Below, piece after piece: positions 42,961 to 64,000 of a stretch of DNA of 64,000 nucleotides. The stretch's first letter is position 1, and every line of letters begins with the position of its first letter. Source of the stretch: Pseudovirgaria hyperparasitica (lineage: Eukaryota; Ascomycota; Dothideomycetes; Acrospermales; Acrospermaceae); the NCBI RefSeq assembly GCF_010093815.1, contig NW_022985550.1:881074-945073 (forward strand), given 5' to 3'. Below the pieces are notes generated by a model. The model was given only the letters and a program-made list of their open reading frames with translations, searched no databases and was not told where the DNA came from. Both the position numbers and the translations under genes were made by a program.

Positions 42961-43203
42961 CGTGCAGTTGAATGTCGGTTACCGGGTACTCGACTGCATT
43001 GCTACGCCGAAGTGTAAAATCATTTCCTCGTGCCAGGGGCGCCATGATCAGACTCCGATGCACAACTATACCGCCCTGGGATGTCGTCAGCGCTGAATTG
43101 AGTGGGAGATAAAAATGGGTCGCTTGCCCGAGCCTCATGGCCTGCCGACTCCGATGATGGCCCATGCCGGAGAGTTCTGTGATAGTCCGGATCCACTTGA
43201 AAT

Positions 43204-43210
43204 CCTCCGA
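43204..43210. promoter_or_regulatory. CCTCCGA motif upstream of the alpha/beta hydrolase
   Basis: Exact CCTCCGA, the inverse of TCGGAGG, 244 bp upstream of the hydrolase ATG and followed by GCCGGGCGG. It is one of seven exact copies in the intergenic DNA of the putative cluster. Confidence 0.4.
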
Positions 43211-43299
43211 GCCGGGCGGACCATCCGGACGGACAGCCGCGCGTTCGAAGTCAGCAAGTCTAGCCTTTTCTGTCCATATGGTCCAAATGACACAGTTGT

Positions 43300-43522
43300 C
43301 GTGGACGGTATGTGTCTAAGGGCCACACTTCCAAAAGTCAAAAGTCAGAAGTCAAGTCTTAAATCCTGCTTAGTCCACGTTGCAATCAGTCAAAATGAGT
43401 CAAAATCACGTATATTGAGTGTTGTTTCGAGGCACACACCGGGACTCAAGACTGAAATTCTTACTTTTGACTTTTGAATCTTGACTTTTGGAAGTGTGGC
43501 CCTCGGACACATACCGTCCACG
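43300..43522. mobile_element. MITE-like element with long terminal inverted repeats (223 bp)
   Basis: The left end starts CGTGGACGGTATGTGTC and continues through GGGCCACACTTCCAAAAGTC. The right end is the inverse of the same sequence, with two differences (TA versus CG) over about 42 bp, after which imperfect AAAAGTC-type repeats extend the arms. The roughly 120-bp interior has no coding capacity. A 2-bp GT flanks both ends and could be the target duplication, but this is weak. It is a non-autonomous DNA element by structure; the superfamily is not determined. It sits between the hydrolase promoter and the acyl-CoA synthetase 3' end. Confidence 0.75.
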
Positions 43523-43534
43523 GTATACAGTTCG

Positions 43535-43573
43535 ACCGTATGTGTCCGAGGGCCACACTTCTAAAAGTCAAGG
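43535..43573. repeat. Partial second copy of the MITE left end
   Basis: ACCGTATGTGTCCGAGGG and the following GCCACACTTCTAAAAGTCAA repeat the left terminal sequence of the adjacent element in direct orientation, then stop abruptly. Both copies are preceded by an ACAGTT sequence (43292 and 43527 areas), suggesting a local duplication, a nested insertion or a truncated neighbour. Confidence 0.65.
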
Positions 43574-43919
43574 GGATCCTAGATTACTGATTGTCGATTA
43601 GATTCCTATTACTCATCATTTTAGAGAAAGGTAGGGAGACGCTTGGTCTTGATGCAGCTCATTGAGTTGACCTGCAGCTACTATTCACTAAGTCAGTGTA
43701 ATGTATCTAGAATGTAGCGCTATCACGTAGGGAGATATTCAACACCTCGAAGAAAGTCTAACCTCTAGTAGCTACACGATGACCGTTTATAATGGCAATG
43801 ACAGGTGCTGGGAACGAATTCGCGGCAAATAACGATAGGCGAAATCTTTCAAACCCTACTCTACAAGTACGCCTGATGTTCGATGAAGTCATACAGTCGT
43901 ACATTTTCAACTACGACAG
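43574..43919. other. Non-coding interval downstream of the acyl-CoA synthetase
   Basis: About 350 bp between the partial MITE copy and the synthetase stop codon. No gene or clear repeat is seen. Confidence 0.4.
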
Positions 43920-46203
43920 TTACTTTGCCTTCTCCAGTGCCTTGTGTTTCCCATTGCTCAACTCGAAGTACTCCCGTATTCTCGTCCGGGCGACATTCAC
44001 AGTGTTGACGTCTTCGATCGTACTCGGAATTCCTACCTCCTTCTCAAAATCATTATTAACTCCATTCTCAAGCAACTCTCTGAGTACCCGCCGCAGAATC
44101 TTTCCACTTCTTGTCTTGGGGATAGTTCCGGAGCCTTGAATGATGCCGCCAAGTGAAGCAAAGGCCCCAACTTGTTCGCGCACCAATTTTTGTATCTCTC
44201 GGTAGATTTCAGAAGGTGGAATGGGCGACGAGTGGTATGACGAGGTAGAGAGCGTGATGAAGGCGAATGGCAATTGCCCTTTCAATGCGTCAGGAATACC
44301 CACAACGCAGGCCTCAATAACTAGCGGATGAGATATCACAGCCTGCTCGATGGAACCTGCTCAATTCGTGTTAGCAGATTTGGTTGCCTTGCCTGGAGGA
44401 TTGTCCTTGATCACGAGTGACGCTGGAGAAGGACTTACCACTGCTCAATCTGTACGCGCTTACATTAAGCACATCATCGTTTCTGCCCATCACCCACACA
44501 TACCCATCCTTATCAATCCAACCATTATCTCCGGTGTCCATCCATCGTCCGTTGAACCTTTCTAAGTAGCTTCTATAAAATCTTTCGTCGTTATTCCATA
44601 AATTGTGAAAAGCAGTAGGCGCGAGTGGTAACCCCAGAACAACGTTACCCATAGCACCCCTCTCAATCTCTTCGCCTGCATCATCTACTACCCGAACATC
44701 GAACCCGGGCATTGGTTTACCAGCGCTACCCGGTTTGCTGGACACGAGTGCATAAGATGAGGGATCCATCTCCGGCAATTCGAGCGCAAGATTGGGCATC
44801 AATGCGCCGCCGGTGATGGGACTGCCAACTTCTGTTGACCACCAATTGTCGATGCATCTGGCGTTGGGTGCCGCATGCTTCTCCAGTAAATGTTGGTAAG
44901 TCTCAATCAGACTCGGCTCGCTCCTCTCACCCGCCAGGAAAAGAGCGCGCAGCTGTTTCAGTCCACCCATCTTGCCGATGTGCTCAAGCATAGTATTCTC
45001 CGGATCATCGTTTCGTATTGCTCGAAGCGCAGTGGGCGCCGTAAACATCGTAGTTACACCATACTCCTTCACGACCCTCCAAAACGCGCTCGCATCTGGG
45101 GTACCTACGGGTTTACCTTCGTACAGCACTGTCGATGCACCCGCAAGCAGAGGCGCGTAGCAAATATAAGAATGCCCGACCACCCATCCGATATCCGATG
45201 CGGTGAAAATGACGTCGCCTGGACCCTGAATGTTGAACACAGAAGCAATCGATAGCGAAAGTCCAACGGCGTGGCCTCCTGCGTCTCGTAAGACACCCTT
45301 GGGAGTGCCTGTCGTGCCGGAAGTATACAGGATATACACAGGTTCAGATGAACCAATGGGCACACATGCGGCCTTCAACCGATCGTTCTTTGCCCTTTGA
45401 ACGACGTTTTGCCAGACTGATTGTTTTGTGGATGTCTGCAGGCCGATGATCCGTCGGAAAAATGACCATACGCGCGACCACCATGGCTTCGTGGTCCAGC
45501 GGAGTTGTGGGCGTTGCCAGATCCATACGTTCTCTGGTTTGTGAGATGAAAGGCGGATTGCTTTTTCTACCAAAGGCTGGTATGCGATCGCAGGTCGATT
45601 GCCGACGATTCCACAGGAGGCAGTAAGAAGAATCTTTGGCCTGCAGTCGTCTATCCGTTGAGCGAGGGCAGTGGGAGCAAAGCCACCGAAGACGACGGAA
45701 TGTATAGCGCCGAGACGATTTATGGCGAGCATACCGATGATAGATGCAGGAATCATGGGCACTGGACTACCTCGTGAGTGACACTACGCTATCATCTTGG
45801 TATTTGACGTACTGTAAAGCATTACCACGTCGCCTCTCCTGATGCCATATCTTCTCAGCGCTCCAGCCAGGGCCTCCACCTCTCTCAGAAGATTGTTGTA
45901 AGTGTACTTCTCTTTGACATGGGTGACCGGGCTGTGGTAGTAGATAGCGACAGTATCGCCATTGCCCGCAGCAACATGTCTGTCCACACAATTGTAGCAT
46001 GTCGATATTTCCCCACCCGAGAACCAGTCCCACGTAGGATGCGAAATGCCATTTTCAAGAGCTTTCCTCCCCTTCTGGAGTGCAACTTTTGGTTTCGTGT
46101 GCCAGAACAGCCGATCTGCTTGCGATAACCAAAACTCCTCTGGATTCTGCAAGCTTTCGCGCAGGACGTCGTCTTGGACGATTCTTTCTGGAACGCCAGC
46201 CAT
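43920..46203 (-). CDS. Short-chain acyl-CoA synthetase, ACSS3/PrpE-like (719 aa)
   Basis: AMP-forming ligase activating a short carboxylic acid (propionate, acetate or similar) to its CoA thioester. Three exons: 46203-45813, 45770-44439 and 44356-43920; introns of 42 and 82 nt, 720 codons. The 42-nt intron is short but is the only one keeping the frame (VVMLYSSPVPMIPAS). The N-terminal ACAS region has NPEEFWLSQ and HPTWDWFSGGEISTCYNCVD. The P-loop reads YTSGTTGTPKG (about residue 290). Adenylation motifs DNWWSTE, GRWMDTGDNG and the C-terminal Lys in TRSGKILRR follow. The end (KHKALEKAK) is not a clear peroxisomal signal. CCTCCGA 130 bp upstream links it to the cluster, where it could supply a starter or extender unit (inference). 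Confidence 0.9.
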
Positions 46204-47396
46204 TTCGACGTGAAAGGCAATATGTCAAGCTATGATGCTATGACGGCACGTAGGCCTTCATCTAAGGCAGAACATGCCGCCAATCATTTCGCCAGTGCAC
46301 GAAAACCGCGACGAAGCAATGGCCATCGAAAGCCTCCGAGCAGTGAGCGGTACAAGAAGCTAGATACCAATCGGCAATCAGAAGCCTCATGTGCATCCCA
46401 CTTGGAAGTATATGTTCAGGTTCGGATGCTTTCCACGGAGTGTTTATAACACTAAAGTGGAGCACACGTGACCGTAAAGACCTTTCTCGTAACTGCACCC
46501 AGTATGCCTGAGTCTATTACAAGGTAATCTGTTATCAATGAGAACTTCATTGATAAAAGTGGATATGGTTGGTTGGTCGTTTGATTCCTACTTGGTTCAG
46601 GCCGCGTTGTCCTCGCTGCTATGCCCGGCAGGAACGACTTGGTGAATAGCCGACGCGTCTTGCGTATGTAAAGCAGTAATTGTACTAAAAGCACCATAGT
46701 GCTCGGCTCCTTGAGGCTTTCGCCCTGCATGCTGATCCTTCTACCTAGAGACCCCCCCCGGTGCTTGATTCGACTACTCCTCTCTGACCCGGAACTGCCC
46801 AAGGGTCTCCGTTCGTTCTATGAATCTGATAGCTTTGGTGGCTAGCTTGCGCCCGTTCAATCTCGCTCGGCTCGGTGATCTCGTCTCCTGATGCTGGATC
46901 GGTGATAGCCGGGGTGGTGTTCGGAGACTGTTCAGTCTCTTGTTCTTGCCCACTTAGCTACCATTTGATTGTGCCGGTTCTTAGTGTGCTTGACATATTG
47001 AATTGTTCCATGATATCTAGCAACTCTTCTGTCTCGCGATCTGTCAGAATGGAGTCGGGTCGACACATATGTACAGCAATCAATCCTTTTCTCCTTCTAT
47101 CTCTTTTAGATTCAACTGGCGTAGAGAATCACGTGGTGCTCTCATACGATCTGTCCGGACTACTCGTGATCCTCCTTATAGCGGATGATGGAGGTTGAGG
47201 ACACCTAGGTCTATATGTTCTTCCTGATGATGTCCCACCAATGCATTGCGAAGGGTTAGAATGGATATGTGCAAATACGAAACAAAATGCCATTCCGCGA
47301 TTGCTATCACGTGTTTGACCCTAGCTCTATTTTAACTCTTTCGATTGTTCTTTGACCTAGGCACAGATTTTCGCCGAATACGACTATGCACGAGTA
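46204..47396. other. 1.2 kb gene-free interval in the cluster
   Basis: Holds the synthetase promoter (first about 250 bp) and then sequence with no supported gene. The longest plus-strand frame (46875-47198) is Ser/Leu-rich with no domain. The minus strand shows short Glu/Ser/Thr-rich frames. Because an LTR-like segment follows, part of this could be old repeat DNA, but no family is readable. Confidence 0.4.
46333..46339. promoter_or_regulatory. CCTCCGA motif upstream of the acyl-CoA synthetase
   Basis: Exact copy of the shared 7-mer, 130 bp upstream of the synthetase ATG. Confidence 0.4.
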
Positions 47397-47541
47397 TGTT
47401 GAAAGATGAGGTTGCAGGAGTAACTCATTGAATTGAATTAGTTGTAAGTCGTTAAGAGAGAGAGACTGCAGAAGCTATTTAAGTGGTTGGCCACTAGTCC
47501 CAATCAGGAAGCTGGCCCTCACTATGGAGCCCCTTTTAACA
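47397..47541. repeat. Possible solo-LTR-like fossil (145 bp)
   Basis: The segment starts TGTTGAAAG and ends TTTTAACA, i.e. TG...CA with short TGTT/AACA inverted ends, the form of a fungal retrotransposon LTR. It has a TATA-like TATTTAAG inside. The flanking pentamers GAGTA and CAGTA differ at one base, compatible with an old target duplication. No internal region or second copy is visible in the window, so it would be a solo fossil. The evidence is structural only and could be chance. Confidence 0.3.
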
Positions 47542-47561
47542 CAGTACTTACTCACTTACAA

Positions 47562-48613
47562 TCAATTCATCCAGTCTCTCATGCCTTTTTCCATTAATTT
47601 TTCACTAAACCGCTGGTTCTCTTCTAGGTGATGATTGCCAAGGAGGTTGGGATAGAGGCTTTCCAGTACCACCTCTCTCGTTTGCACGCTTGACTCTACT
47701 TGAGTTTCGCTGATGGCCACAATCTCCACGATATTGCCATCGCCATACTTGGCCTCTGTCAAGATCTTGAAGATCTCTTCTGCTGCTTGTCCTTGCGTTA
47801 AGCCGATACTGCATTGCGTTAGCCAAAATAATCTCCTGAGCGGCGAGAAGAATAACTCACTCGGTTGGAAGCAGCTGGTCTCTGCAATAGTCTTGATCGA
47901 ACAGTGGAGTCTGGAGTACGTCAGTGTATGCGCACTGGAAAGAGCTGTCCTATGGCACATACTTTCGTTGGGCCAGGACATGCTGCAGCATTTCGGATCC
48001 CAAACATCTGCCTTAGAGGGCCAAAGCTCTTGGCTATACTGATGATGGCTGCTTTACTGCTACAATACAGTGGAGTCTGCATCATGTGCACATAGCCAGT
48101 CACACTGGCTACCCACATCAGATTTCCTTGAATGTCCCGGTTTTGCAGCCAATAATCCATTGCAATTTGCGACAATCGGATTGGAGCCATGGTATTGATA
48201 GCAAACAGCTTGTAGACTCCAGGATTGCAATCGACCGAGTCACTCGCGTGTGGTGAGATACCGGGAGCGTTCCAAAAAGTGCTCCATGGAGGCTCGTAGA
48301 CCGCTGCTCCGTTGACTACGATGTTGACTTTGCCAAAGGCTGCCACTGAACGGTCAAACAGGCTCTGCAGCTGCGCCCAGTCTGCCAGGTCTGTTTGCAA
48401 GAAGATTGCAGATGGTTTACCGGCGTCCGGTGCTGGGTGAGGGTACTTTAAGAGTGTGGCCTCCGCCTCCGGACGCAGTCGCAGATCAACCATAACCACA
48501 GAACAACCATTCTGCAACAAGATCTCCGTCAGCGCATGGTTGATACCGGATCCAGCCCCTGTGACAATAGCGACTTTGTCTTCAACATCGTATGCGGTTT
48601 GGTGTGGAGCCAT
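47562..48613 (-). CDS. Short-chain dehydrogenase/reductase, putative cluster member (315 aa)
   Basis: NAD(P)-dependent oxidoreductase for an alcohol/ketone pair. Exons 48613-47963, 47910-47861 and 47808-47562, with two 52-nt introns, 316 codons. Start chosen at MAPHQTAYDVEDKV, which puts the cofactor motif TGAGSGI near residue 20; the frame remains open 27 codons further upstream without an SDR signature. An acidic residue after strand 2 (VVMVDLRL) suggests NAD preference. The NNAG motif is NGAA, the catalytic Ser is in WVASVTGY and the YxxxK motif is YCSSKAA. The overall form resembles the 15-hydroxyprostaglandin-dehydrogenase-like classical SDRs of fungi. It shares a 508-bp bidirectional promoter with the flavin monooxygenase, which suggests joint expression. 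Confidence 0.9.
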
Positions 48614-49121
48614 TGTAGTGTGTTGAAGTTGTGGCTGTATTGGATTATCGAGAAAGCCTCGGGCGGTCTCAATAAGGCGTGAAGCCACGATCACCCGGCT
48701 CTTGTCATTATGCCACGACCGTAGATGCTGCTCGCGTAATTATCAGGGTAGTGGCCCTCCAATTTTCTCAGTTTAACCCCCCGAGGTGGCACTCAATACC
48801 CTCCGGGTTCCGAATCACCCAGACAGCGGTGCTCATTCTCACGAAGGGACCGACTGTATCGGAGTGCTTCGTAACCGACTATACCATTATCGTAGCCTGG
48901 CGAGCTCCAGAATGCAAATATTGGGTATGCACATTGTCAAACGCCATCTGGTCTTGCGATACGAGGTCGCATTTTCTATCCCTGCCTGTCATTTCCGGGG
49001 ATAACAAGCATGTTGCGAAACTTCTGCAGCCTGTAGATAGACCAGAACCATTCCAGGAAAGCAATCCCCGACTCAGCTTGCGCACTAAAACTCAACTGCA
49101 ACCGCATAGAGCTTTGTCTTC
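48614..49121. promoter_or_regulatory. Bidirectional promoter of the SDR and BVMO genes
   Basis: 508 bp between divergent starts. It contains one-mismatch versions of the cluster motif: CCTCCGG (48800-48806, followed by GTTCCGAATC) and TCGGAGT (48859-48865). The CGG/CCG triplets are of the type bound by Zn2Cys6 proteins. Confidence 0.45.
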
Positions 49122-51113
49122 ATGGCTCAGGCACAACCAGTCCAACCTGTTGTGGACGTCGTCACAAATGCTACCGATCATGGACCTTGTCATGTAGCAC
49201 AATCTAAAAATGCTTCTGAAGAGGCCGAGAAATTGCAGAAGAAGTATGAGGAGGAACGAAATAAACGACTCCGGTCCGACGGCCTCTCACAGTATCTCAA
49301 CCTGAGCTCTACAGAGAACCCAAAAATACGCCGCTACCTCGACGATCCTTGGGACGACGGATCTATCTCTTCAATTCCTTTGCAAGATGGTGCTCACACC
49401 AAAATTCTTATTGTGGGTGCCGGTTTCGGAGGACTTATGTTTGCTGTTGAGCTCATCCGAGCAGGAATTCCACATGGTGACATTTTGATGGTCGATCAAG
49501 CCGCTGGGTTTGGTGGTGCATGGTACTGGAACAGATATGCGGGCTTGATGTGCGATGTCGACAGTACTGTCTATATGCCTCTTTTGGAGGAGACAGGCTA
49601 CAGAGCAAAACACAAATATGCATATGGTGAGGAGCTGCGCGAGCACGCCGAGAGGATTGCTACCAAGTACAAATTGAGAGATCGTGCCATGTTTCGAAGC
49701 GAAGTCCACAGTTCTCAGTGGGATGACACTACGAAAATGTGGAAGCTGAAGCTTACACAGCGCTCTCCCAATTCGAACGACATTTCCGCTGCCGTAAGCG
49801 CTGACTTCGTCATATTCGTGCCAGGGCTTTTCACGCGCCCAAAGGTCCCCAATTTGTCGGGTCTAGAAACCTATTCTGGCAAAAGCTTTCTCACCTCGCG
49901 TTGGGACTACGAAGTAACAGGCGGAAACCAAGAAAACCCTTCTCTCGAAAACTTACGAGACAAACGGGTCGGCATCATCGGTACTGGCGCCACAGCCTTA
50001 CAAGCTGTTCCTCATCTCGCAAAATGGAGTAAGCATCTGTATGTCTTCCAACGCACGCCATCTTCCGTGGATGTTCGCCGCCAGAAGACCATCACCGACG
50101 CGGAATGGGCAAATGTCACCAAGTCTGGACCTGGATGGCAAGCAGTACGGAGCAGAAATTTTACGTCCTTCACAGCTCGCGTTGAACCGTTGCCAGAAAT
50201 CGACATGATCTCCGACGGATGGACTGATTTCCCATCGTACCACGTCCTTACTGGTGGTGGGAAGCCCGTGACGTCAGAAATGGTAGCAGCACATATTGCC
50301 GACTCACACCGTTTGGATCTTCCGCGCATGGAGAGAATTCGCGCGCGGGTCGATCAAGAAGTCAAGGACCCAGCTGTTGCTGAAAAACTTAAACCCTGGT
50401 ATGCGGGATGGTGCAAGCGGCCCGGCTTTCACGATGACTATCTTTCGACCTTCAACAAACCCAATGTCGAGCTCATCGACACAGCGGGACGAGGAGTGGA
50501 TGCTATCACCACGACAGGTGTGCAAGCAAATGGGCAAGTATACGATGTGGATGTCCTCATCTTCTCCACAGGCTTCGAATCTGGCTTCCATTTAGACCCT
50601 GGATCTCGATGCGGAATCGAAGTCATCGGGCGGGAAGGGCGACGAATGGCGGATAGATGGGAGAAGGAGGGCACGGCAACACTACACGGTATCATGAGCC
50701 GTGGCTTCCCCAACTTATTCTTCACTGGAACACCGCAATCCGGAGTTTCGCCCAACTATACCCCCTCGCTGGAGATCTTTTCGCGGCATACGGCCTACAT
50801 CATTTCCGAGGTTGAAAAGAAGCGAGCAGTGCTCCCAGAATTGAGAGTCGCGGCAGAGCCTCATGCGGATGCTGAGAAGGCTTGGGTGATGGGCGTGCTT
50901 GCCGGGGCATATTCACTGGCTCCACTGGGTCATTGTACACCGTCATATTTCAATGCGGAGAGTGATGTAACAAAGCTACCGATGGAAGAACAAGTCAAAG
51001 GTGCTGTAACGGCAGCTTGGCCGGGAGGTATAAATGACTATCTGGATATACTCCAAGCTTGGAGGGAAGCTGGTGATCTTAGTGGACTAAGCATCACACT
51101 GACAAGTAAATGA
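49122..51113 (+). CDS. Baeyer-Villiger-type flavin monooxygenase, putative cluster member (663 aa)
   Basis: Single-exon gene. By family it inserts oxygen next to a ketone using FAD and NADPH, giving an ester or lactone. The N-terminal 80 residues carry the extension seen in fungal BVMOs (KKYEEERNKRLRSDGLSQY). The FAD Rossmann motif is ILIVGAGFGG (about residue 95) and the NADPH motif is VGIIGTGATA (about 285). WYWNRYAGLMCDVDS and the C-terminal FFTGTPQSGVSPN fit the steroid/cycloalkanone BVMO lineage. The BVMO fingerprint FxGxxxHxxxW reads Y-S-G-K-S-F-L-T-S-R-W (251-261), so the expected His is Leu257 (codon CTC at 49890-49892). Activity may be altered or the residue may be dispensable in this clade. 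Divergent to the SDR. Confidence 0.92.
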   Translation: MAQAQPVQPVVDVVTNATDHGPCHVAQSKNASEEAEKLQKKYEEERNKRLRSDGLSQYLNLSSTENPKIRRYLDDPWDDGSISSIPLQDGAHTKILIVGAGFGGLMFAVELIRAGIPHGDILMVDQAAGFGGAWYWNRYAGLMCDVDSTVYMPLLEETGYRAKHKYAYGEELREHAERIATKYKLRDRAMFRSEVHSSQWDDTTKMWKLKLTQRSPNSNDISAAVSADFVIFVPGLFTRPKVPNLSGLETYSGKSFLTSRWDYEVTGGNQENPSLENLRDKRVGIIGTGATALQAVPHLAKWSKHLYVFQRTPSSVDVRRQKTITDAEWANVTKSGPGWQAVRSRNFTSFTARVEPLPEIDMISDGWTDFPSYHVLTGGGKPVTSEMVAAHIADSHRLDLPRMERIRARVDQEVKDPAVAEKLKPWYAGWCKRPGFHDDYLSTFNKPNVELIDTAGRGVDAITTTGVQANGQVYDVDVLIFSTGFESGFHLDPGSRCGIEVIGREGRRMADRWEKEGTATLHGIMSRGFPNLFFTGTPQSGVSPNYTPSLEIFSRHTAYIISEVEKKRAVLPELRVAAEPHADAEKAWVMGVLAGAYSLAPLGHCTPSYFNAESDVTKLPMEEQVKGAVTAAWPGGINDYLDILQAWREAGDLSGLSITLTSK

Positions 51114-51603
51114 GATGGCGATGGCAACATGCCTTTACATTCCTTGACGTCCTCAATTCTAATTAAAGTACGCATGCAGAATCTCCAATCAGCCCGATGA
51201 AGTTGTACGTACTCTTTCCTATAATAGATACGAGCGGCTTCCAGCGAGAACATTGCGTGAGTGCATACTATAAGCATCTCTCGCAAGATGATCATGCAGC
51301 CTTGTATCGTAGACTTGCTCTGATATTCCGGCGAGTTTACTTGAACTACCGATCCCTGCCATGCAATGCTTGAAGCCGGAAGTAGAGGAGTGGTACACTT
51401 CGGAGGTTAAAACCACTCTCCGTGAAATGCCGCCCTCGGAGAGCAGCAGCACATTCACGTGGATCCGACATAAGAAGCGCCGGACACAGTCGGCCACATC
51501 GCAATGAGTAATTTAGCTGAGCGGTCTTCACCTGTTTCATCCCACACCCGATTCCATTCCATCATCTCATTTCATCTCATCCCAAACCTCGTTTTCAACC
51601 AAG
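51114..51603. promoter_or_regulatory. Promoter of the ABM-fold gene with a TCGGAGG site
   Basis: 490 bp between the BVMO stop and the small ABM gene. TCGGAGG at 51400-51406 is 198 bp upstream of the ATG, and a related CCCTCGGAGAG follows at about 51433. Confidence 0.4.
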
Positions 51604-52020
51604 ATGGCCGCATCTGCACCTGCCTCGGGCGTCTCGCGCCACATCACCGTCTACATCAAGCCCGAGCACGCCAGCACGTTTCTCGGAGCATTCAAGACCC
51701 TCTTCGACCAAGTAGTCACCAATCCCGAATGCAAGTTATTCGAGGTCTACCGAGATTCCAAGGAGCCCGGTGTCTTTCACTGGGTCGAAGACTGGTAAGC
51801 AGGGTCACCGGCGTCGACGACGAATAATCAAATCTTGCGAGATTACTAAAAAAAAAATTATGGCAGGGATGGAACTGCCGAGTGGCTGGCCGCTGCACAG
51901 GAGGGCAGTGAGGATTACAAGAAATGGCTGGCGTTTGAGGAGACGCTGTATGCGAAGCCGAGAGAGGAGCGCATTGTGGAGAGGATGGCAGGTGATTTCT
52001 TTCACGTGAACAAGGCATGA
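51604..52020 (+). CDS. Small ABM (antibiotic biosynthesis monooxygenase) domain protein (114 aa)
   Basis: Two exons, 51604-51794 and 51867-52020; the 72-nt intron (GTAAGC...TGGCAG, with a ten-A run near its 3' end) splits the Trp codon of VEDWDGTAEW. The product is one ferredoxin-like alpha+beta ABM domain. It has a start SRHITVYIKPEHASTFLGAF, a central KLFEVYRDSKEPGVFHWVED and an end VERMAGDFFHVNK. In polyketide pathways such proteins act as cofactor-free oxygenases or as cyclase-like helpers; stand-alone ones can also be stress proteins. Its place between the BVMO and P450, with a TCGGAGG upstream, suggests a cluster role (inference). Confidence 0.85.
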
Positions 52021-52488
52021 GTAGAGAAAGAAGAGGAACCAAGACGTTGCGAGATAGTTTGCCATGGCAGGTGTTCCATGCTCAATCCCTTCTATCGCCT
52101 AGAGGCCAACTACACATTTTGGCTGCAAAAAATATGTACATCGTGTTTGTCCTTCGTATAGTCATCAAATCTAGTCCAGTTACACATTTCCACCATAAAG
52201 AATTCTGTAACCCGTGATTTACCACCGCATAGTCATTGAAATCTTACCCGGGCTGCGGTGAGAATGGTCGTGGGCCGGAGATCGGATGTAATATAAAACC
52301 CTCCGAACGGGTGGATAGCGCTCCCGAACCACCTTATGCTCGATTCTGATTGGCTTGCAAATATTCTCAGCAGTCCAAGGATTTGCAGACACTTGGTTGA
52401 TCAGTTGTCCCTTTGGTAAGATCCAGTCAAGCTAAACTGGCAAGGCGACGTTATTCAGTCAGTCACGAAGTAACAGTCATTCATCACG
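52021..52488. promoter_or_regulatory. P450 promoter with a CCTCCGA site
   Basis: 468 bp upstream of the P450 start. It contains GCCGGAGATCGGATG followed by a TATA-like AATATAAAA (52290 area) and CCTCCGAACGGG with the exact motif at 52300-52306, 183 bp before the ATG. Confidence 0.4.
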
Positions 52489-54255
52489 ATGCTCAGCACA
52501 ATTTTATTAGTCATTGCGAGTATCCTACTCTTCTTCTACTTTTCCTATCGATGGGCATTACCCAGACCTATACCAGGGATTCCGTACAATGCCTCGTCTG
52601 CAGGCAAGGTGCTTGGCGATGTGCCGGACCTCCTCAACGAGCTCGCCTTGACCGGCGATATGGTGCAATGGCTCTTGAAGCAGAACTTGAAGACCCAGTC
52701 ACCGATCAGTCAAATCTTTGTGCAGCCACTGGGGAAACCATATGTGCTGGTGAGCGATTGGCGCGCTGCGCGAGATGTCATGATGCATCGGTCCAAAGAA
52801 TTCGACCGATCGAGTCTAATCACCAATCTTTTCGAGGGCCTGCTTCGAAGGCAGCAGTTCACGCTGCAAACCGGCGCAGAGTGGAGGGCGCATCGATTCT
52901 TGGTGCAGGATACCATGACCCCTGCGTTCTTGAACAAGATGTGCGCACCGGCAATTTATGCCCGCAGTCTGGATATGGTGAAGCTGTGGACGATCAAGGA
53001 AAGACTTGCGGGCGGAAGACCATTTAGAGCAACCGACGACATCTTCCATGCAACCTTCGACGCCGTCAACAGCTTTTCCTTTGGCGAGCAGTTCCAGCAC
53101 AGTTCGACGCGGCCACATATCGAATTACTCGAGAAGGAAGAACCAGAGCGCATCCAGGAGGGCCAGGATATCAATGCCCCGGTTGAATTCCCCAAGGCCC
53201 ATATCGACCCATCCCTCGATGCCATGCTCGAACTGTCCGAGATAATGGAAGCTGTCAAAAACGCCCCTTCGCCCTCCCTGCAATGGCGCTGGACTAAACT
53301 CACGCGTTCGTTCCGCCAGCACACGGCGTTGAAGGATGCATGCCTCCGGACGGAGATCTCCAAAGCCGTGCTCCGGGCCCAGCGGCGCGACGAGCGCGGA
53401 ACACCAGCAGGACACGAGGAAAAGGTGGAGGAACCCAGCACGAGCACCATCCGCTCTGGTATCGATGTTATCATCGATCGTGAAACACGCGTCGCAGCCA
53501 AGGAACAGAGAGCGCCGGACTACACCTCCCAGCCCATCATGGACGAGCTCTTCGGTTTTGTAGTCGCCGGCCATGATACCATGTCCACGACTCTCTGCTG
53601 GGCTGTGAAGTTCCTTGCTGACAATCCCGGCACCCAGACCAAGCTACGCCAAGCACTTCGTGTCGCTCATGCAGCGGCAGTGAATGAGTCTCGCGCACCG
53701 GCGGCAGAGGAAATTGCCAGCGCCAGGATTCCGTACCTGGAAGCAGTCATGGAAGAAGTGCTCCGGTGCGGCTTGACTGTCCCAATCGGCGATCGGGAGG
53801 TGGTCGCGGAGAGCGGAGCTGACCTCCTCGGTTATCGTATCCCAAAAGGCGTGATTGTTTTCTTCTTGCACAACGGTCCGGGTATGCGCATTCCGGAATC
53901 CGACGCAAACATTGCAAAGTACGGCACCGAAGCTGGCGCTCTACACGGTGGTAAAAAAGGAGGCATTGCTCCATGGAGCGATGATGATATAACAAACTTC
54001 AAGCCAGAGCGGTGGTTATCGGACGATGGTAGCTTTGACGCACAAGCAGGGCCAAGCATGCCTTTTGGGCTGGGCATACGCGCCTGTTTCGGAAAGAGAT
54101 TGGCATATTTGGAGTTTCGAATTTTGTTGACGATGATGATGTGGCATTTCAGCTTAGGACCGTGTCCGGAGGAGTTGAGTGGATATGCAGGGCAGTTGGC
54201 GGTGGTACATAAGCCTAGAGTGTGTTATGTCAGGCTGGAGAGTATCACGAAGTGA
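52489..54255 (+). CDS. Cytochrome P450 monooxygenase, putative cluster member (588 aa)
   Basis: Single-exon, ER-membrane haem-thiolate oxygenase. N-terminal anchor MLSTILLVIASILLFFYFSY is followed by a Pro-rich hinge (ALPRPIPGIPYNA). The C-helix has WRAHRFLVQD and the I-helix oxygen-binding motif is AGHDTMST. The ExxR is EEVLR, the aromatic region is FKPERW, and the haem loop FGLGIRACFGKR gives Cys533 as the axial ligand. At 588 residues it is longer than the usual 500-530. The extra length lies between the F/G region and the I-helix (about residues 210-330), including a Glu/Arg-rich part. It is likely to hydroxylate or epoxidise the polyketide product; the CYP family is not assigned. Confidence 0.93.
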   Translation: MLSTILLVIASILLFFYFSYRWALPRPIPGIPYNASSAGKVLGDVPDLLNELALTGDMVQWLLKQNLKTQSPISQIFVQPLGKPYVLVSDWRAARDVMMHRSKEFDRSSLITNLFEGLLRRQQFTLQTGAEWRAHRFLVQDTMTPAFLNKMCAPAIYARSLDMVKLWTIKERLAGGRPFRATDDIFHATFDAVNSFSFGEQFQHSSTRPHIELLEKEEPERIQEGQDINAPVEFPKAHIDPSLDAMLELSEIMEAVKNAPSPSLQWRWTKLTRSFRQHTALKDACLRTEISKAVLRAQRRDERGTPAGHEEKVEEPSTSTIRSGIDVIIDRETRVAAKEQRAPDYTSQPIMDELFGFVVAGHDTMSTTLCWAVKFLADNPGTQTKLRQALRVAHAAAVNESRAPAAEEIASARIPYLEAVMEEVLRCGLTVPIGDREVVAESGADLLGYRIPKGVIVFFLHNGPGMRIPESDANIAKYGTEAGALHGGKKGGIAPWSDDDITNFKPERWLSDDGSFDAQAGPSMPFGLGIRACFGKRLAYLEFRILLTMMMWHFSLGPCPEELSGYAGQLAVVHKPRVCYVRLESITK

Positions 54256-54365
54256 GCGATCGGTTCAAAGATCATCTCTCATCATGTCGAGTCAGATTCA
54301 TCCGTTAGAAAATCGTTTCGTTCGTGAGCTTCATTCTTATATACCCACGATATCATCATGTCTCA

Positions 54366-55782
54366 TTAGTATGACAAGTCTAGGTACTTTGCACCGTCAA
54401 AGGTCTTCTTGCCTCCATCACTCTTCCAGATCTCGACTTCACATCCACCCATCAGGACACCCACACGCATTGTAGCAAGCAGGTTGTGAGCGGCATTACT
54501 GTGATCGTAGATACCTTTGTTGAACAGAGCCGTAGCGTCTTTGCCAATGGCACTCTTGATCAATGCTTGGCCGCCAGGATGCTCATTGATGAAGCTCGAG
54601 ACGTCGTGGATGACTCCAGCAATTGAGGTTAGTGCTTTGCCTTCAGACCAAGCTGATTCAACAAAAGCATCCCATGTGTACACCGGTAGTTCATTGAGTG
54701 GTGTACCCCAGTCGAGCTTTGCGCGACGGACGTCAAGCTTCTTCTGCATTTGTTGTAATCTGCCCTTTTCCACCTCGTTCGAGCGGAACTGCTTAAGATG
54801 ACTGGCAAGGCCAAGTTTACCCCAGATCGTGATCATCCTGTGTTTAATCAGTGTAAGTTCCAAACGTAAAGGCTGTGCGATGGGACATACCACTTCGTAG
54901 GATCGTACTGGTACCACTCAATCGCATTGCGAAAGTCAGAGGGAAATTCATGGTGATAATTGTGATACCCCTCGCCCAGAGTGACTAATGCAGTAATCCA
55001 ATTATCGCGTGGTGAGTTGCGGTCGTCAAATGGTTGGTCGCCAAGCCAGTGAGCAAGACTGTTTATGCAGAAGGTCGCTTGCTGTACAAAGCATGCGCGA
55101 ATGATTCCAGCGTACACCAAACCACCGAGCATGTCTCCCCAGATCCCGCACACCAGAGCAGGGAAAATGAAAGCCATGCTGAGCACGCACACTAGGTAGT
55201 GCTTGTGTTGCCACCGGACAATTGGGTCCGAATTCAAATCGACAACGTCAGCTCGGCCAATCTTCTTTGCATCTTGGTTGAGTACCATCCAACCAATGTG
55301 AGAATACATAAGACCCTTGCGGACAGAGTAGGGGTCCTTCTCGGTGTCTGTGTAACGGTGGTGTGCTCGGTGGCCGCGTGACCACCAGCGGATTGAGCCT
55401 TGAACGGAGCCGGCGCCGACCGCGGCAAGATATATCTGAAGGGGAAGTGAGGCTTTATACGAAGTGTGAGCCCAAAGGCGATGGTAACCTGAAAAGAAAT
55501 TGTTAATTGACAGCTTGAACGAGAGACGTGCATCTGCGGATTACCAGCTGTGATACCGAGGCCGGTATTGAAATAGTAGAAGACGGCGAAAATAGCCGTG
55601 TAGAGCCTCAGAGGTACGAAGAAGGTAGCGATGAATCCATATAACGGGATAAGGACGACAAAAATGACATTCAGCCAATTGATATGCTTATACCAATTGG
55701 ATCGAGTCCATGGCTCATCGCTGATATGAGGCTTTCGTGTTGCTCCATCGGTTGTAGTTGACAAGACCTTTGAGACTGTCAT
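54366..55782 (-). CDS. Delta-9-type acyl desaturase fused to cytochrome b5 (435 aa)
   Basis: Membrane di-iron desaturase that introduces a cis double bond into an acyl chain, related to Ole1. Exons 55782-55545, 55488-54891 and 54837-54366; introns 56 and 53 nt, 436 codons. Four hydrophobic helices are visible. The histidine boxes are HRLWAH (from residue 82), HRAHH and HNYHH, all eight His kept, though the first box differs from the common HRLWSHRSY at Ser and Arg (here A and T). The C-terminal cytochrome b5 has its haem histidines in INEHPGG and YDHSNAAH. At 435 aa it is shorter than yeast Ole1. As a copy inside a PKS cluster it probably acts on a pathway chain or on a fatty acid feeding it (inference). 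Two GCGGAGG near-motifs lie 40-64 bp upstream. Confidence 0.92.
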
Positions 55783-56320
55783 TATGGGTGATATCAAGAA
55801 AGTCGTTGGCGGGAATGAGAAGCGGAGGTGGATATATGGGCGGAGGAGAAGGAAAGAGACAGAATCAAAATGTGAAGCGTTGGAAGGTCATTTACTCACA
55901 TTTACATATGGCGGAGCATGGGAATTCAAACATGTCGTTGGGGTTGGGGAAGTTGAAAGTGGGGCCCGAGTGTTTCCTTGCAACTTGTGAAGTTGGCTGT
56001 GACCGCGGACGTGGTTCTGTTGAAAGTGGAGCCAAGTGGGGCAAAGTGGGGCAAGAGCGGCAATCGATCCGATTCCCACTAAGTCCGACCATAAGGCCTA
56101 GTGTCTTGGCTGATTTTACAGTAACAGCAACTAATTACCTGCATCAAACGAATCACATCATAGAAATGCAATTAATCCAACAATGCTCACTAAACCCTAT
56201 CATAAGGCCATAGTGCCTTAGCTACACCAGACGAACCACATTATAGCATGGTAATCGATCCTTACTAAACCCTATCAGAAGGCCTAGTGTCTTGGTTGAC
56301 TGATGCTTATTACTGGCTAC
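55783..56320. promoter_or_regulatory. Desaturase promoter and repeat-rich 3' flank of the enoyl reductase
   Basis: The desaturase side contains GCGGAGG at 55822-55828 and 55840-55846 and is purine-rich. The other side, from about 56060, holds the degenerate repeats described separately. Confidence 0.45.
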
Positions 56321-56326
56321 CTACAT
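56060..56326. repeat. Three degenerate tandem repeats reaching the enoyl reductase stop codon
   Basis: A unit with AATCGATCC, CACTAA(A/G)CC, AAGGCCTAGTGTCTTGG and a TACATTAGACG-like end recurs three times, with AAGGCC anchors at 56093, 56204 and 56279 (spacings 111 and 75 bp). The last unit runs into the final codons of the reductase (CGT CTA ATG TAG). Its age and origin are unknown. Confidence 0.6.
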
Positions 56327-57633
56327 TAGACGTACCACCAGTTTTTGCGCGTGGACTTCTCCCGCCTTGAGCATTTCCAGGCCCTGGATGATGCTCTCCC
56401 ACCTGCCATGTGGCTCGTTGGACAGCTCTCGAGGCGGGTGGCACTTGAGCTGTCCATGATCGACGAGCTGCTGCACTTCGTCCCGCCAGCGTTGTCCAAG
56501 CTCCATTTTGGTATGGTCGGCGTCACGATGATAGGCTCCTTGGAGCTGTACCTCAGAGCCAAAGAGGGTATATCCCAGAGGGAAATCAATCTTGACAGCT
56601 TTGCGCGTTCTCCACGCGTCGGGAATATGGTCTAGGGCACTGATGCGCGCACCGGCCCGCCCCAGAGCTTCGAAACAGGTCGCTACCGATTCTGGTGACG
56701 TAATGCAGTCGATGGCGTATCGTAGGGTGCCCTTCGTCTGCTCCTTGATTGTGTCGCCGCACGAAGGAGCGGTGTAATCGATAGTGCTGACGGCTCCATA
56801 GCTTTTTACCAGGGTTGAATTGGCGGGAGAGACTGTCGCAATAGGATCGCATCCGGCACTGCAAAGGAAGAATGTCAGCTCTGTTCTGGCGCTTGTCCAT
56901 TTTGGGTCTAGCGCGTTGACTCATCATATATCGTACATCGCTTGGAGGTTTCGTTCTCAACCTCGTCTCGCACCTCACCTCCACTTCTTTCATCTCCACC
57001 ACACCACACACGAAAGCACCAACAGCACCTTACCTCGCTCATTCGATATGGGTAAGAAAGTCTCTGCACATACCTTGCTAGCAGTTGACAAGCCATAGTC
57101 CCTGTTGCGGTCGCCCCCCCGGAGACCAGGACCACTGGTCGCTTGCCGTCGGCTCGTAGGTTCATTTCCGCGTTGGATGGACGTCCTGCGAGCTGGAGAG
57201 ATTTTTCAATTGCCAACGCCACTGTCCCCCATCCAACGCCTCCTAGTGCTGCAGCTTCTTTGTCGCTCCAGGTGTCGGGAACTTTGATGAGCAACCGGCT
57301 GTCTGCGACAAGGAACTCGGCGAATGAACCAATGTCGGGGTTCCCAGGGTTAGATCCGTGAACGAAACCGCATACGCGCTGCCCAACTTGCAACCCTTCA
57401 GTGGAGGATCCGGTCGAGACAACTGTCCCCGTGAAGTCGCAGCCGATGATAGCGCCAGGCTTCGGATTGGATTCTGGAGACTTGAAGTCCGTTGGGTTCA
57501 AGGCAACAGCAGCGACCCTGACTAAAACATCATGCGGTTTTCGTATTTGCGGTATAGCATGCGTCTGCGAGACAATTGGCTTCCTCGTACCATCAGAAGA
57601 CTGGATTAGACACTCCATAATGTGAGCGGCCAT
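56321..57633 (-). CDS. Zinc-free medium-chain enoyl reductase, LovC/TOXD-like (365 aa)
   Basis: NADPH-dependent reductase of the type that works in trans with reducing polyketide synthases lacking a functional ER domain. Two exons, 57633-57074 and 56858-56321. The intron (56859-57073, GTATGT...TTGCAG) is 215 nt, long for this window, but joins ...ACQLLA-SAGCDPIATVSP in frame (366 codons). The GroES-like part contains VALNPTDFKSPE and GCDFTGTVVSTG, and the FVHGSNPGNPDIGSFAEFLV stretch typical of TOXD/LovC proteins. The nucleotide-binding part has LVSGGATATGTMACQL. The Cys/His zinc ligands of alcohol dehydrogenases are absent. TCGGAGG stands 88 bp upstream (57721-57727). Whether the PKS needs it depends on that enzyme's ER region, which is outside the window. 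Confidence 0.9.
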
Positions 57634-58571
57634 TTTGTGCTTTCTTGAGTTCAGTATGGATCAGACTGGCCCTGGTAGCTATAAGAAAGCCAAAAAATCA
57701 CTTGTCAATCCGAAAGCATGTCGGAGGCACCAAGAAGCAGTACGGTGAATTTCTCTGGTTTCGGAGCCTTTCGCGGGAGCTATCACGTCAATTACATCTC
57801 CCGTTCGAACATGTATCCCACTAATAGCTTTCTAGTGTCTTTTACACAGCCTCTCAGCTGACATAATTCCGGCAACAAAAGCTAATGCGTGGTCCTATAT
57901 CTCCCATCCACATTTAGGTGAGAGTACTGTTGTTAGACATGATTAATAGATATGACTCGGAAACGTGCTATACTATCCTAGCCTCTTCTAATATTCTATT
58001 ACTTTACTAGACTGTTATTCTGATTCGTTCCTCAAAAGAATGGAGGTTGTAATGGTCACCCTCCATTACGCTTATGTTACCGGAATTATGTCGGCTGATA
58101 GCGCAGCCTTATTATGCCTTGGATTACTATATAGACTAGTGCTAAATCGTAGTTGTAGGATCTGTTTCCTGGTCCCTGTGTGGGACTTTTTTTTCGAGAC
58201 TCGGTCCTCTTGGTATAATTGGTTGGTGCATGGAGCTCGGCCTCTTACAGAGGAATATATAAGGAGCGGTCTCTCCATGTATTTGGTTCTCGCTCTATCT
58301 AGTCTTTACCTTAAGAACTATAATCTATCTTCTCTATTATATGATAGTCTATGTTAGTATATATTCCATTACTAAGGAATATTATCCACCCCTTTACCTG
58401 TCCTTTTTACATCCTCTATATATATGTAAGACTTCATACAAGCCCTCCGATGGCCTGCCCATACCTCCATCTTAATGTATCAATCGATTGATCTAACGAC
58501 TGAACTTACTATCATTAGAATATCAAAGGGTCTTCACATTTGTCTACACAAGGGTGACTTCGCTTTTCAGC
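57634..58571. promoter_or_regulatory. Divergent promoter of the enoyl reductase and the C6 regulator, with an A/T-rich core
   Basis: 938 bp. TCGGAGG (57721-57727) and a nearby TTCGGAGCC lie on the reductase side. From about 57940 to 58440 the sequence is A/T- and TpA-rich. The 105-codon plus-strand frame there (58040-58357) has no domain and looks like chance within eroded DNA. Confidence 0.45.
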
Positions 58572-59933
58572 ATGCCTAGCGGCCAGATCGCCAAAAGGTC
58601 CGCTTGTGACCGCTGTCGAGATCTCAAACTGCGCTGCACCCGAGAGCAAACTGCGGATGAACATGTTCCATGTGATCGGTGCACCAGGTTCGATGCGCTT
58701 TGCATTACGGGTAGTGGTCGGCGATTAGGGAGACCATCGGTGGAGAACAACGATACTCGACCCATCCGAAGGAATTCTTCAAATCATCAACATCGCAACG
58801 ACCGCAATTCGTGGCAGAGGTTGAATCATCGACCTTTGACGACGAACAATACTCTAGGTCCTCCCAGGCCAGACAACCCTAAGAACGACAACCTTTACAG
58901 ACTTGCAGACTCGGACTTCTTTTCAGACCCGAATCTCGATCCTATGTTGTATGAGTCTGACTTCTTGGGGGGTTCTTCCAGTGCAACTCCAGCCAATAAC
59001 GCAAATGGAAACGGCCAACTGCCAATGACCCTCGGTATTGATACATCAGATTTACCAGACTTGGATGTCGACAGTCCATGTGACATGACTGCCCTGAGTT
59101 CATCCACTATGCCAGCGCTGGCGAATCCTAACAAGAGGCCTGCTTCACGGAATGATTCTGGTATTGTCCTTAATCAATCTGCAGAGGCCGACTCTTCATC
59201 CCTAGCAGGAGTTATCAGTGACACTTCGCGTCAGTTATTTGAGCTGAGAAGCAAGGCGCAGCATCACTCACTCGAGACAATGCTGGATCAACGCAGCGTT
59301 AGTTCAGATATAAATGCCGTATCTCGACAGCTATCCGACCTAAGAAACCGAGCTAGCGAGTCATCGATTGATTCAATTATGACCTCAGCAGGCATAGCAC
59401 ACGACTTTGCGAGATTCAATGACCCCATCAAGACAGGACCTCTCGAGAGCATGCTCTCGACGTCCATGCGTTTCATCCTTGTCTTGCAAATGCTTGCACC
59501 CGCGGAGTACGACACGGGTAGCACATCACGTCCAAGAACGAGCAGCAACTCCACAGCTCTAGACACCATGCTTATGCTCCTCTCGATATACGTACGCCTT
59601 GGCCAGTCCTTCGAGCATGTCCTTAACGGGGTGGTGCAGAACCGCAACTTTATTTCGTCAGGCTCCCAGCCTTCTTCGCCGGCTTCAACGTACAATCAGC
59701 AGTATTCAGCACAGTTGATGATGGTAGTCCGTGCTTTAGGACATCAACTGTCCACCGTGGAACGACTGATGGGTATTCCCGCGAGAGTTAGACTCTGGGG
59801 ACCGAAAGATGACTATCCGGGTATCTTGAATCAAGACCAGTCATTTTTGACCAAGGCGGCGATCTCCCAAGCCCAAGAAACGTTTTATTCGTTACGAAGA
59901 ACTATGCATGATATCGAAATTTCTTGTACATGA
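58572..59933 (+). CDS. Zn2Cys6 transcription factor, putative cluster regulator (453 aa)
   Basis: Single-exon gene from ATG 58572. The binuclear zinc cluster is near the N-terminus: Cys12, Cys15, Cys22, Cys34, Cys37, Cys44 (CDRCRDLKLRC, then CDRCTRFDALC). A basic linker follows (GSGRRLGRP). Residues 60-250 are Asn/Ser/Asp-rich and likely disordered. The C-terminal 150 residues are helical (MRFILVLQMLAPAEYD, MLMLLSIYVRLGQSFEHVL, MMVVRALGHQLSTVERLMG), as in AflR-type pathway regulators; no large fungal-specific middle-homology region is seen. Its position between the reductase and the PKS makes it the likely activator of the cluster. Its CGG-type target could be the shared TCGGAGG (inference). 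Confidence 0.9.
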   Translation: MPSGQIAKRSACDRCRDLKLRCTREQTADEHVPCDRCTRFDALCITGSGRRLGRPSVENNDTRPIRRNSSNHQHRNDRNSWQRLNHRPLTTNNTLGPPRPDNPKNDNLYRLADSDFFSDPNLDPMLYESDFLGGSSSATPANNANGNGQLPMTLGIDTSDLPDLDVDSPCDMTALSSSTMPALANPNKRPASRNDSGIVLNQSAEADSSSLAGVISDTSRQLFELRSKAQHHSLETMLDQRSVSSDINAVSRQLSDLRNRASESSIDSIMTSAGIAHDFARFNDPIKTGPLESMLSTSMRFILVLQMLAPAEYDTGSTSRPRTSSNSTALDTMLMLLSIYVRLGQSFEHVLNGVVQNRNFISSGSQPSSPASTYNQQYSAQLMMVVRALGHQLSTVERLMGIPARVRLWGPKDDYPGILNQDQSFLTKAAISQAQETFYSLRRTMHDIEISCT

Positions 59934-60875
59934 GCAAGGGAGGCAAATCGGACACCAGATTTTTGTTTGTAACATTCCTGATCGCCACAGCTCAAGACAA
60001 ATCCAATGCATATCAACGTGTTTGAACAAAAGTTTGGCTTAGATCTCAGTGACTTTCGAAAAGCCCTAGCCAGAATGCCAAATGTACACTGCAGTAAGTC
60101 AATGTCAGGACTGGGTTTTGGATTGATTACCTATGATTCACACCCAGGACAAGTCATTCCACTTGGAGGAGACTCCTCCCTGCGTCAATTGCCAGTCACG
60201 AATGACTCGATTGTCTAAAACCTCCACGTTCGCACGCCATTCGACCCCACTAAGTGACGTAGAAACAAAACCAGGTGTGGTTTATACCTCCTTCTAAAAC
60301 ATGATTTATGGACCCCTGCGTGAAGCCCGGCCGAAGTGTCAGCTAGAATTTTTCAGCTTCAGCGCGGATGGCTGCGACCGATGAATGGTTGTGGAGATCA
60401 CGCGCGTAGATTACAGATCTCTAACCCTGCACGCACGAGGGCCTCAGAATTGCTTTTTATCCATTTTGAAAACTCTGAGTCGGACGGTTTGCTTGGAAAT
60501 TTGTGTAAATCCTCCGACAGGCCTCGGGTAGGGACATCGGAGGGTTTGCGCATAACGGCTGTCACGATTCCGGTAGCTTTTAATACGGTATCGGATCTAT
60601 CTGAACGGGGCATTCCCAGCGCAGAATCTTCTCCTTGCCCGTGGTTCGCCCTGATGCAACGGGTCGGATAACAAGGCTTTCTAAACTAAAGCACTAAACA
60701 GTTAAGGGACTGACATGGTCTCTATTGCACCACCGCCACCAATCTTCGACGAATATACTATGGGATCTCTGTTATATCATCCTAATTACTTAGATCTTAT
60801 TAAGCCCTAGGGTTATATACATAGAGTATAGCTAGATTAGATAGGAACGCTAATTACTCTTCCATACACACCAAC
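59934..60875. promoter_or_regulatory. PKS upstream region
   Basis: About 940 bp between the regulator stop and the PKS ATG. A 70-codon frame (60006-60218) has no recognised feature. The last 120 bp before the ATG are A/T-rich with several TATA-like stretches. A CCTCCGA/TCGGAGG inverted pair is listed separately. Confidence 0.5.
60511..60543. promoter_or_regulatory. Inverted pair CCTCCGA...TCGGAGG in the PKS promoter
   Basis: CCTCCGA (60511-60517) and TCGGAGG (60537-60543) form an exact 7-bp inverted repeat with a 19-nt spacer, about 333-365 bp before the PKS ATG. Paired CGG half-sites are a usual target form of Zn2Cys6 dimers. Function is inferred, not shown. Confidence 0.45.
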
Positions 60876-63800: not shown

Positions 63801-64000
63801 AGAACCTACGCCGACGAAGTGAGCCCGTTCATCCGCTCTTGGGTGATCTCCTACAGAACAGCACCGCAAACAACCTCACGTGGAAGAATTTTCTCCGGCC
63901 ACAAGATCTGCCATGGATCCATGAGCATCAGATCCAAGGGCAAAGCGTGTTCCCTGCCGCCGGATATGCTTCTACAGCTATCGACTCGGCCAGATATGTC
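60876..64000 (+). CDS. Reducing-type iterative polyketide synthase, N-terminal part (KS-AT-DH..., truncated by the window end)
   Basis: Type I fungal PKS building the carbon chain. Exons 60876-61350, 61413-61939 and 62000 to beyond 64000; introns of 62 and 60 nt keep the frame, and exon 3 is open to the window end. The ketosynthase begins [15 protein letters not shown] and has the catalytic Cys186 (DTACSSS), His in [12 protein letters not shown] and His in IGHTEST. The acyltransferase has [10 protein letters not shown], nucleophile Ser651 in GHSGGE and a YHSHHM substrate motif. A product-template domain is absent. A dehydratase starts with HPLLGDLL and shows the HxxxGxxxxP motif from His977 ([10 protein letters not shown]). 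This KS-AT-DH order marks a reducing PKS. Methyltransferase, ER, KR and ACP parts lie outside the window and cannot be judged. Confidence 0.96.

Follow-up and report, generated by a model that had tools for sequence, protein, structure and literature searches.

A gene cluster built around a polyketide synthase-nonribosomal peptide synthetase (PKS-NRPS) megasynthase begins within the 64,000-nucleotide window analyzed here (C2:881074-945073, in a genome of 35.03 Mb on 59 contigs), and six of its eight promoter regions contain the word TCGGAGG, of which TCGGAGGNTTT is an extended form. With a probability of about two in three, we take TCGGAGGNTTT to be a cis-element specific to this cluster and read by the cluster's own predicted Zn2Cys6 (C6) regulator (58572-59933); the presence of a cluster-specific promoter motif, with the left border of the cluster at its hydrolase gene, is supported. 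From left to right, the cluster comprises genes for an alpha/beta hydrolase, an acyl-CoA synthetase, a short-chain dehydrogenase/reductase (SDR), a Baeyer-Villiger-type flavin monooxygenase (BVMO), an antibiotic biosynthesis monooxygenase (ABM) domain protein, a cytochrome P450, a cytochrome-b5 desaturase, an enoyl reductase, the C6 regulator, and the megasynthase, over approximately 41.7-73.2 kb. Judging from gene content and introns, the source is probably a filamentous fungus.

Intergenic DNA was defined with a gene finder that was trained on long open reading frames of the fetched DNA and applied to 183 kb (40 kb to the left, the window, and 79 kb to the right), with predicted genes scoring below 5.5 discarded before counting. 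Gaps of 30 bp or less were excluded from the copy counts and the 7-mer ranking; gaps of 60 bp or less from the matrix scan, known words, filtered resampling, and dyads; and gaps of 100 bp or less from the simulated and first resampled sets. Stretches of N totaling 485 bases in the 183 kb were removed for the matrix scan. The cluster promoter DNA (approximately 6.2 to 6.3 kb) contained eight copies of TCGGAGG against 0.74 expected from genome density (Poisson P = 1.2e-6), which agrees with the excess that an earlier reading of the letters alone (the sequence-only reading) had claimed over approximately 0.8 expected copies, and three copies were present in the 55.7 kb of intergenic DNA elsewhere in the 183 kb region (Fisher P = 1.4e-6 versus the eight of the cluster). 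The enrichment sits in the gaps between the cluster's genes, and the window and the genome as wholes are unremarkable: 14 exact copies were found in the window against 7.6 expected, a number reached by 5 of 100 shuffles, and the whole genome showed no enrichment, with 4125 copies against 4411 for the reversed control. TCGGAGG ranked first of the 7-mers present three or more times in the cluster promoters. All seven exact copies listed in the sequence-only reading were found where it had placed them, but the list was incomplete, as it lacked an eighth intergenic copy at 58444 and another at 49426 inside the BVMO coding sequence. The latter falls on codons of the BVMO frame that encode a GAGFGGL stretch and was excluded from the counts. 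Distances to the start codon, previously given as 88-365 bp, were measured as 87-358 bp for the exact copies; the 11 sites considered below, which include inexact ones, are 87-389 bp away from start codons and occur in both orientations.

The element looks longer than the 7-mer and would correspond to TCGGAGGNTTT. Five of the eight cluster copies fit this word, whereas in the genome as a whole 60 of 4125 copies do (binomial P = 3.5e-8, uncorrected for the choice of flank), and T was present in six of eight copies at each of offsets 8, 9, and 10 from the core start. These five sites span 17.35 kb and are grouped more densely than any others in the 35 Mb genome; elsewhere, no span of 17.4 kb holds more than two, the same maximum was seen for the reversed control (68 sites), and when 60 sites were placed at random on a line of genome length, none of 20000 placements put five within such a span. 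A genome-wide frequency as high as that of the cluster had been named beforehand as a sign against the motif; for the extended word, it is not high. With one mismatch to the extended word allowed, there were 16 matches in the window against 3.7 expected, nine of which lie in cluster promoters, where some of them provide an additional (second or third) site for the acyl-CoA synthetase, enoyl reductase, and PKS-NRPS genes. Four one-mismatch extended sites were found in the 6.2 kb of cluster promoters versus approximately 0.36 expected by genome density; because sites within one mismatch are as common genome-wide as the control (2115 versus 2296), these count as evidence by location alone.

Each promoter region was then scanned with a matrix built from the other promoters (left-one-out) and compared with 200 background draws. 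The claim that the motif marks the cluster's promoters at large goes too far: the match was strong in five of the eight regions (hydrolase, acyl-CoA synthetase, P450, enoyl reductase/regulator, and PKS-NRPS), in which the score exceeded all 200 draws, weak in the shared SDR/BVMO region (P = 0.035), and at background in the ABM promoter, which has the bare 7-mer alone (P = 0.635), and in the desaturase promoter (P = 0.61). In the enoyl reductase/regulator region, the best matrix matches were those at 58440 and 57760, not 57721. When the full matrix was run over the 183 kb, its six highest-scoring matches all fell inside cluster promoters, a result that is partly by construction because the matrix was built on those sites. 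One-mismatch copies proposed earlier at 48800, 48859, 55822, and 55840 are all present in the sequence, but the desaturase pair (55822 and 55840) does not rise above background; both members of this pair read GCGGAGG, the 48800 copy reads CCGGAGG, and all three fit SYGGRG, the CreA word.

No intergenic TCGGAGG was found between 26990 and 42960 or between 60876 and 84379, and the nearest outside intergenic copies are at 26483 on the left and within 84380-84663 on the right. In keeping with the sequence-only reading, the gaps adjoining the neighboring major facilitator superfamily (MFS; siderophore) transporter and S33 hydrolase genes lack the word, and the motif's density, rank, and clustering across the genome support a left border at the alpha/beta hydrolase; on the right side, the megasynthase gene is the last one preceded by the motif. 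The sites give a predicted regulon and both predicted borders (hydrolase to megasynthase, excluding the adjacent MFS transporter) for an uncharacterized PKS-NRPS cluster, and they match a candidate C6 regulator to a candidate site.

The 58572-59933 protein is a plausible binder of the motif. Consistent with the earlier placement of a C6 regulator within the cluster, it has six cysteines spaced CX2CX6CX11CX2CX6C at residues 12-44 and a GRP tripeptide at residue 53, nine residues past the last cysteine, whereas its Pfam Zn_clus score is below the curated cut-off (18.7 bits versus 21; E = 0.0019). Elsewhere in the genome, this protein has just two weak matches, confined to the zinc-cluster region. 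In the mechanism that we consider most likely, the zinc cluster would read CGG and the AGGNTTT flank would confer specificity, and binding would turn on the genes for the megasynthase, the enoyl reductase, and several tailoring enzymes in concert, if the protein acts as an activator. The 7-mer located 121 bp before the regulator's own gene suggests autoregulation, that is, the C6 protein may act on its own promoter too. Binding could occur in a single-site mode, with one C6 site and no fixed second triplet, or in a dimer mode, with CGGA-N14-TCCG bound at some sites. The GRP stretch may behave as an AT-hook toward the T tract, and a more detailed version of the mechanism, which we hold to be unlikely, has an asymmetric composite site with the zinc cluster on CGG in the major groove and the putative AT-hook-like GRP stretch on NTTT in the minor groove, a monomer being enough at most promoters and a CGGA-N14-TCCG dimer being used at some. 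If true, the composite site would be a C6 recognition mode that departs from the paired-CGG rule; the site is asymmetric, with a T tract next to CGG and an optional partner arm, which raises a concrete question about DNA recognition by C6 proteins.

Several observations weigh against a cluster-specific element read by the cluster's own C6 protein. The zinc-cluster score of the protein falls under the Pfam cut-off, the bare 7-mer has a significance of approximately 0.01 after correction (see below), the extended flank was picked after the sites were seen, and the motif score is no higher than background in the ABM and desaturase promoters and weak in the SDR/BVMO promoter. In addition, C2:1064-1074 kb has four bare copies and one extended copy in 6.3 kb of intergenic DNA, and C3:208-248 kb, the sole other place where three extended sites fall within 30 kb, has three bare and two extended copies in 18.2 kb of intergenic DNA. 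A stretch of contig C29 has no bare intergenic copies; all three stretches were fetched for holding extended sites and are not a fair background. Within the first of these, 125 kb from the cluster, C2:1069319-1069561 carries three copies of TCGGAGG, one of which is extended, within approximately 240-250 bases of one intergenic stretch and is perhaps another target of the same factor. A second PKS-NRPS-like frame, of 4156 residues with ketosynthase and condensation matches, was found at C8:800309-809410, with no extended site within 250 kb. Used as a control, this locus has one bare and no extended copies in 27.3 kb treated as non-coding, but the control is a weak one because the gene finder called no gene in 20 kb of the stretch.

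Chance, acting through a word picked post hoc among thousands, is a highly improbable source of the pattern. Random or resampled promoter sets do usually hold some 7-mer in five to six of eight promoters, and resampling of real intergenic DNA gave 24 sets in 300 that matched the P value of TCGGAGG, the ten strongest all via CACACAC/ACACACA. When words of period 1-3 were left out and at least four promoters were required, 6 of 500 sets still matched (five by AATATAT and one by CAACGTC), hence the corrected significance given above for the bare 7-mer. None of 300 simulated promoter sets did so, however, and the NTTT tail and the grouping of the five extended sites are evidence in addition to the 7-mer. 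It is unlikely that the element is real but read by another factor, either a different zinc-cluster protein or a C2H2 factor: CGGAGG lies within an Azf1 word listed in the table of a review, 5'-AACACGGAGGAG-3' (PMC8939176), but the flanks of that word differ, the sites of a global factor would be expected at many loci, and the sole dense group of extended sites in the genome surrounds this C6 gene. A generic element was ruled out, as the extended word is no more common genome-wide than its reversed control (60 versus 68) and, among 21 other ketosynthase loci, just two have an extended site within 20 kb (one each; 1.4 expected overall) and 19 lack one. Copies of one repeat were also ruled out, since triplet sharing among the flanks of the 11 sites does not exceed that among random stretches. 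In the cluster promoters, we found no enrichment (found versus expected) of the words of AflR (TCGN5CGR; 4 versus 4.8), GliZ (TCGGN3CCGA; 0 versus 0), MlcR (WCGGN6KCGG; 0 versus 0.22), or CreA (18 versus 19.0) or of PacC, CCAAT, GATA, and CGGN11CCG words, and the Rgt1-like CGGANNA was not raised there; the FarA word CCTCGG (6 versus 1.8; P = 0.01) and the oleate-type CGGN3TNA (14 versus 6.9; P = 0.01) were weakly raised, without correction.

The dimer mode can also be taken further, such that a C6 homodimer would bind CGGA-N14-TCCG, with this inverted dyad as the functional site and TCGGAGG as just the better conserved of its halves. This dyad is the top inverted 4-mer dyad of the cluster promoters (four sites in three promoters, with 0.047 expected; 1 of 300 resampled sets equal) and does not occur in the remaining intergenic DNA of the 183 kb; moreover, the copies at 43204 and 51400 each form one arm of such a dyad, and that at 52300 has a version with N15. 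We nevertheless judge this version very unlikely, as the partner arm is present at just three of the eight exact copies, no partner triplet occurs at a fixed distance above the random level across the 11 sites, and two of the four dyads overlap one another. Further dyads are found outside the cluster, one in 13.4 kb of intergenic DNA of C29 and one in a coding gene at 99825, and TCGGAGG-N12-TCCG occurs 7 times in the genome against 12 for the control, with two of the seven at this locus.

A cluster-specific regulatory word is a known pattern, and the word itself is unlike those of PglR, the Api-box, and TopC; the Api-box regulator is an "atypical" one of the ankyrin/basic type. As for PglR of the Fusarium PGL1 cluster (PMC4872168), a C6 regulator lies inside a polyketide cluster with a CGG-containing promoter word. 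The PglR word is the palindrome CGGN3CCG, which occurs at approximately 1.9 per kb in the cluster promoters versus 0.10 per kb in the background and in four of five promoters, with placement conserved across species and a regulon confirmed by overexpression; in our cluster promoters, CGGN3CCG occurs twice against 0.45 expected (P = 0.07, not significant). As for the Api-box of apicidin F (TGACGTGA; PMC4109984), one short word in cluster promoters was used to infer the regulator's site; the Api-box was proved by point mutation and is absent from the promoter of its own regulator, whereas our word is present before the regulator. TopC, from a Tolypocladium PKS-NRPS cluster (PMC10609478), is likewise a Zn2Cys6 regulator of such a cluster and binds the promoters of its genes, as is predicted here; the predicted TopC word differs in being a 20-base, A/T-rich sequence that is without CGG. 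As in CASSIS, whose "islands of sites" method is named in PMC9335490, a shared promoter motif is used here to set the cluster borders. Among the open-access matches listed, none reports this site as the target of a regulator, and the available passages of a paper on terrein contain no such word.

Coordinates of motif sites, dyads, and genes of the cluster (window positions; 7-mer, TCGGAGG; extended, TCGGAGGNTTT)
Feature	Position	Strand	Remark
CGGA-N14-TCCG inverted dyads 43168-43189 and 43188-43209, hydrolase promoter	43168..43209	.	two dyads, 2-base overlap
TCGGAGGATTT, hydrolase promoter	43200..43210	-	exact 7-mer and extended; also arm of CGGA-N14-TCCG dyad 43188-43209
TCGGAGGCTTT, acyl-CoA synthetase promoter	46329..46339	-	exact 7-mer and extended
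TCGGATGCTTT, acyl-CoA synthetase promoter	46422..46432	+	second site, one mismatch
CGGA-N14-TCCG dyad, upstream of acyl-CoA synthetase	46790..46811	.	without 7-mer
Weak matches (48774, 48796, 48858), shared SDR/BVMO promoter	48774..48870	.	three matches; best score P 0.035
TCGGAGG then TTAA, ABM promoter	51400..51406	+	bare 7-mer; arm of CGGA-N14-TCCG dyad 51401-51422; left-one-out P 0.635
TCGGAGGGTTT, P450 promoter	52296..52306	-	exact 7-mer and extended; CGGA-N15-TCCG from 52283
TCGGAGG, enoyl reductase promoter	57721..57727	+	bare 7-mer
TCGGAGCCTTT, enoyl reductase promoter	57761..57771	+	one-mismatch site
TCGGAGGGCTT, 121 bp before C6 regulator ATG	58440..58450	-	exact 7-mer, one tail mismatch; absent from the list of the sequence-only reading
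TCGGACGGTTT, PKS-NRPS promoter	60480..60490	+	one-mismatch site
TCGGAGGATTT, PKS-NRPS promoter	60507..60517	-	exact 7-mer and extended
TCGGAGGGTTT, PKS-NRPS promoter	60537..60547	+	exact 7-mer and extended
Alpha/beta hydrolase	41739..42960	-	left-most gene carrying motif; Pfam scores slightly below cut-off
Acyl-CoA synthetase (AMP-binding)	43920..46203	-	gene finder and Pfam
SDR	47562..48613	-	start codon placed by hand
BVMO	49122..51113	+	best solved-structure match 5mq6
ABM domain protein	51604..52020	+	gene finder and Pfam
Cytochrome P450	52489..54255	+	gene finder and Pfam
Fatty acid desaturase with cytochrome b5 domain	54366..55782	-	gene finder and Pfam
Enoyl reductase-like (ADH_N), presumed trans-acting enoyl reductase	56321..57633	-	intron near 56860-57083 uncertain
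Zn2Cys6 (C6) regulator	58572..59933	+	CX2CX6CX11CX2CX6C, GRP tripeptide
PKS-NRPS, first part	60876..64000	+	gene runs past window to ~73151

The gene that the sequence-only reading called a PKS does encode a ketosynthase, which lies inside the window, but it is a PKS-NRPS gene that continues beyond the window. Its predicted product has 4009 residues, and a search of three exon pieces placed AT, DH, MT, KR, carrier, condensation, adenylation, carrier, and terminal reductase domains after the ketosynthase. A cytochalasan-like product was considered as one possibility; no match for a cytochalasin-type cluster with these enzymes was found in the open-access literature searched. The next gene after that of the megasynthase, at 74199, looks like one for a Sir2-type protein. 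The enoyl reductase frame is broken by what looks like an unusually long intron at 56860-57083 (approximately 215 bases), a stretch that is present in a single copy in the genome and that the gene model mis-splices. Condensation-domain matches were also found at C25:24458-38573 and C25:82822-87408, with several stop codons in most frames, as in decayed NRPS genes.

Repeats occur in some of the promoter regions. A palindromic repeat resembling a miniature inverted-repeat transposable element occupies 43300-43572 in the hydrolase promoter, with arms at 43300-43355/43467-43522 and 43480-43518/43534-43572, and 35 genomic stretches, including 3 at this locus itself, match fragments of it; the repeat was ruled out as a source of sites, as it contains none. 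The desaturase promoter has degenerate direct repeats with 27- and 44-base units at 56070-56299, and an inverted repeat with 32-base arms 187 bases apart lies between the enoyl reductase and regulator genes at 57851-58101.

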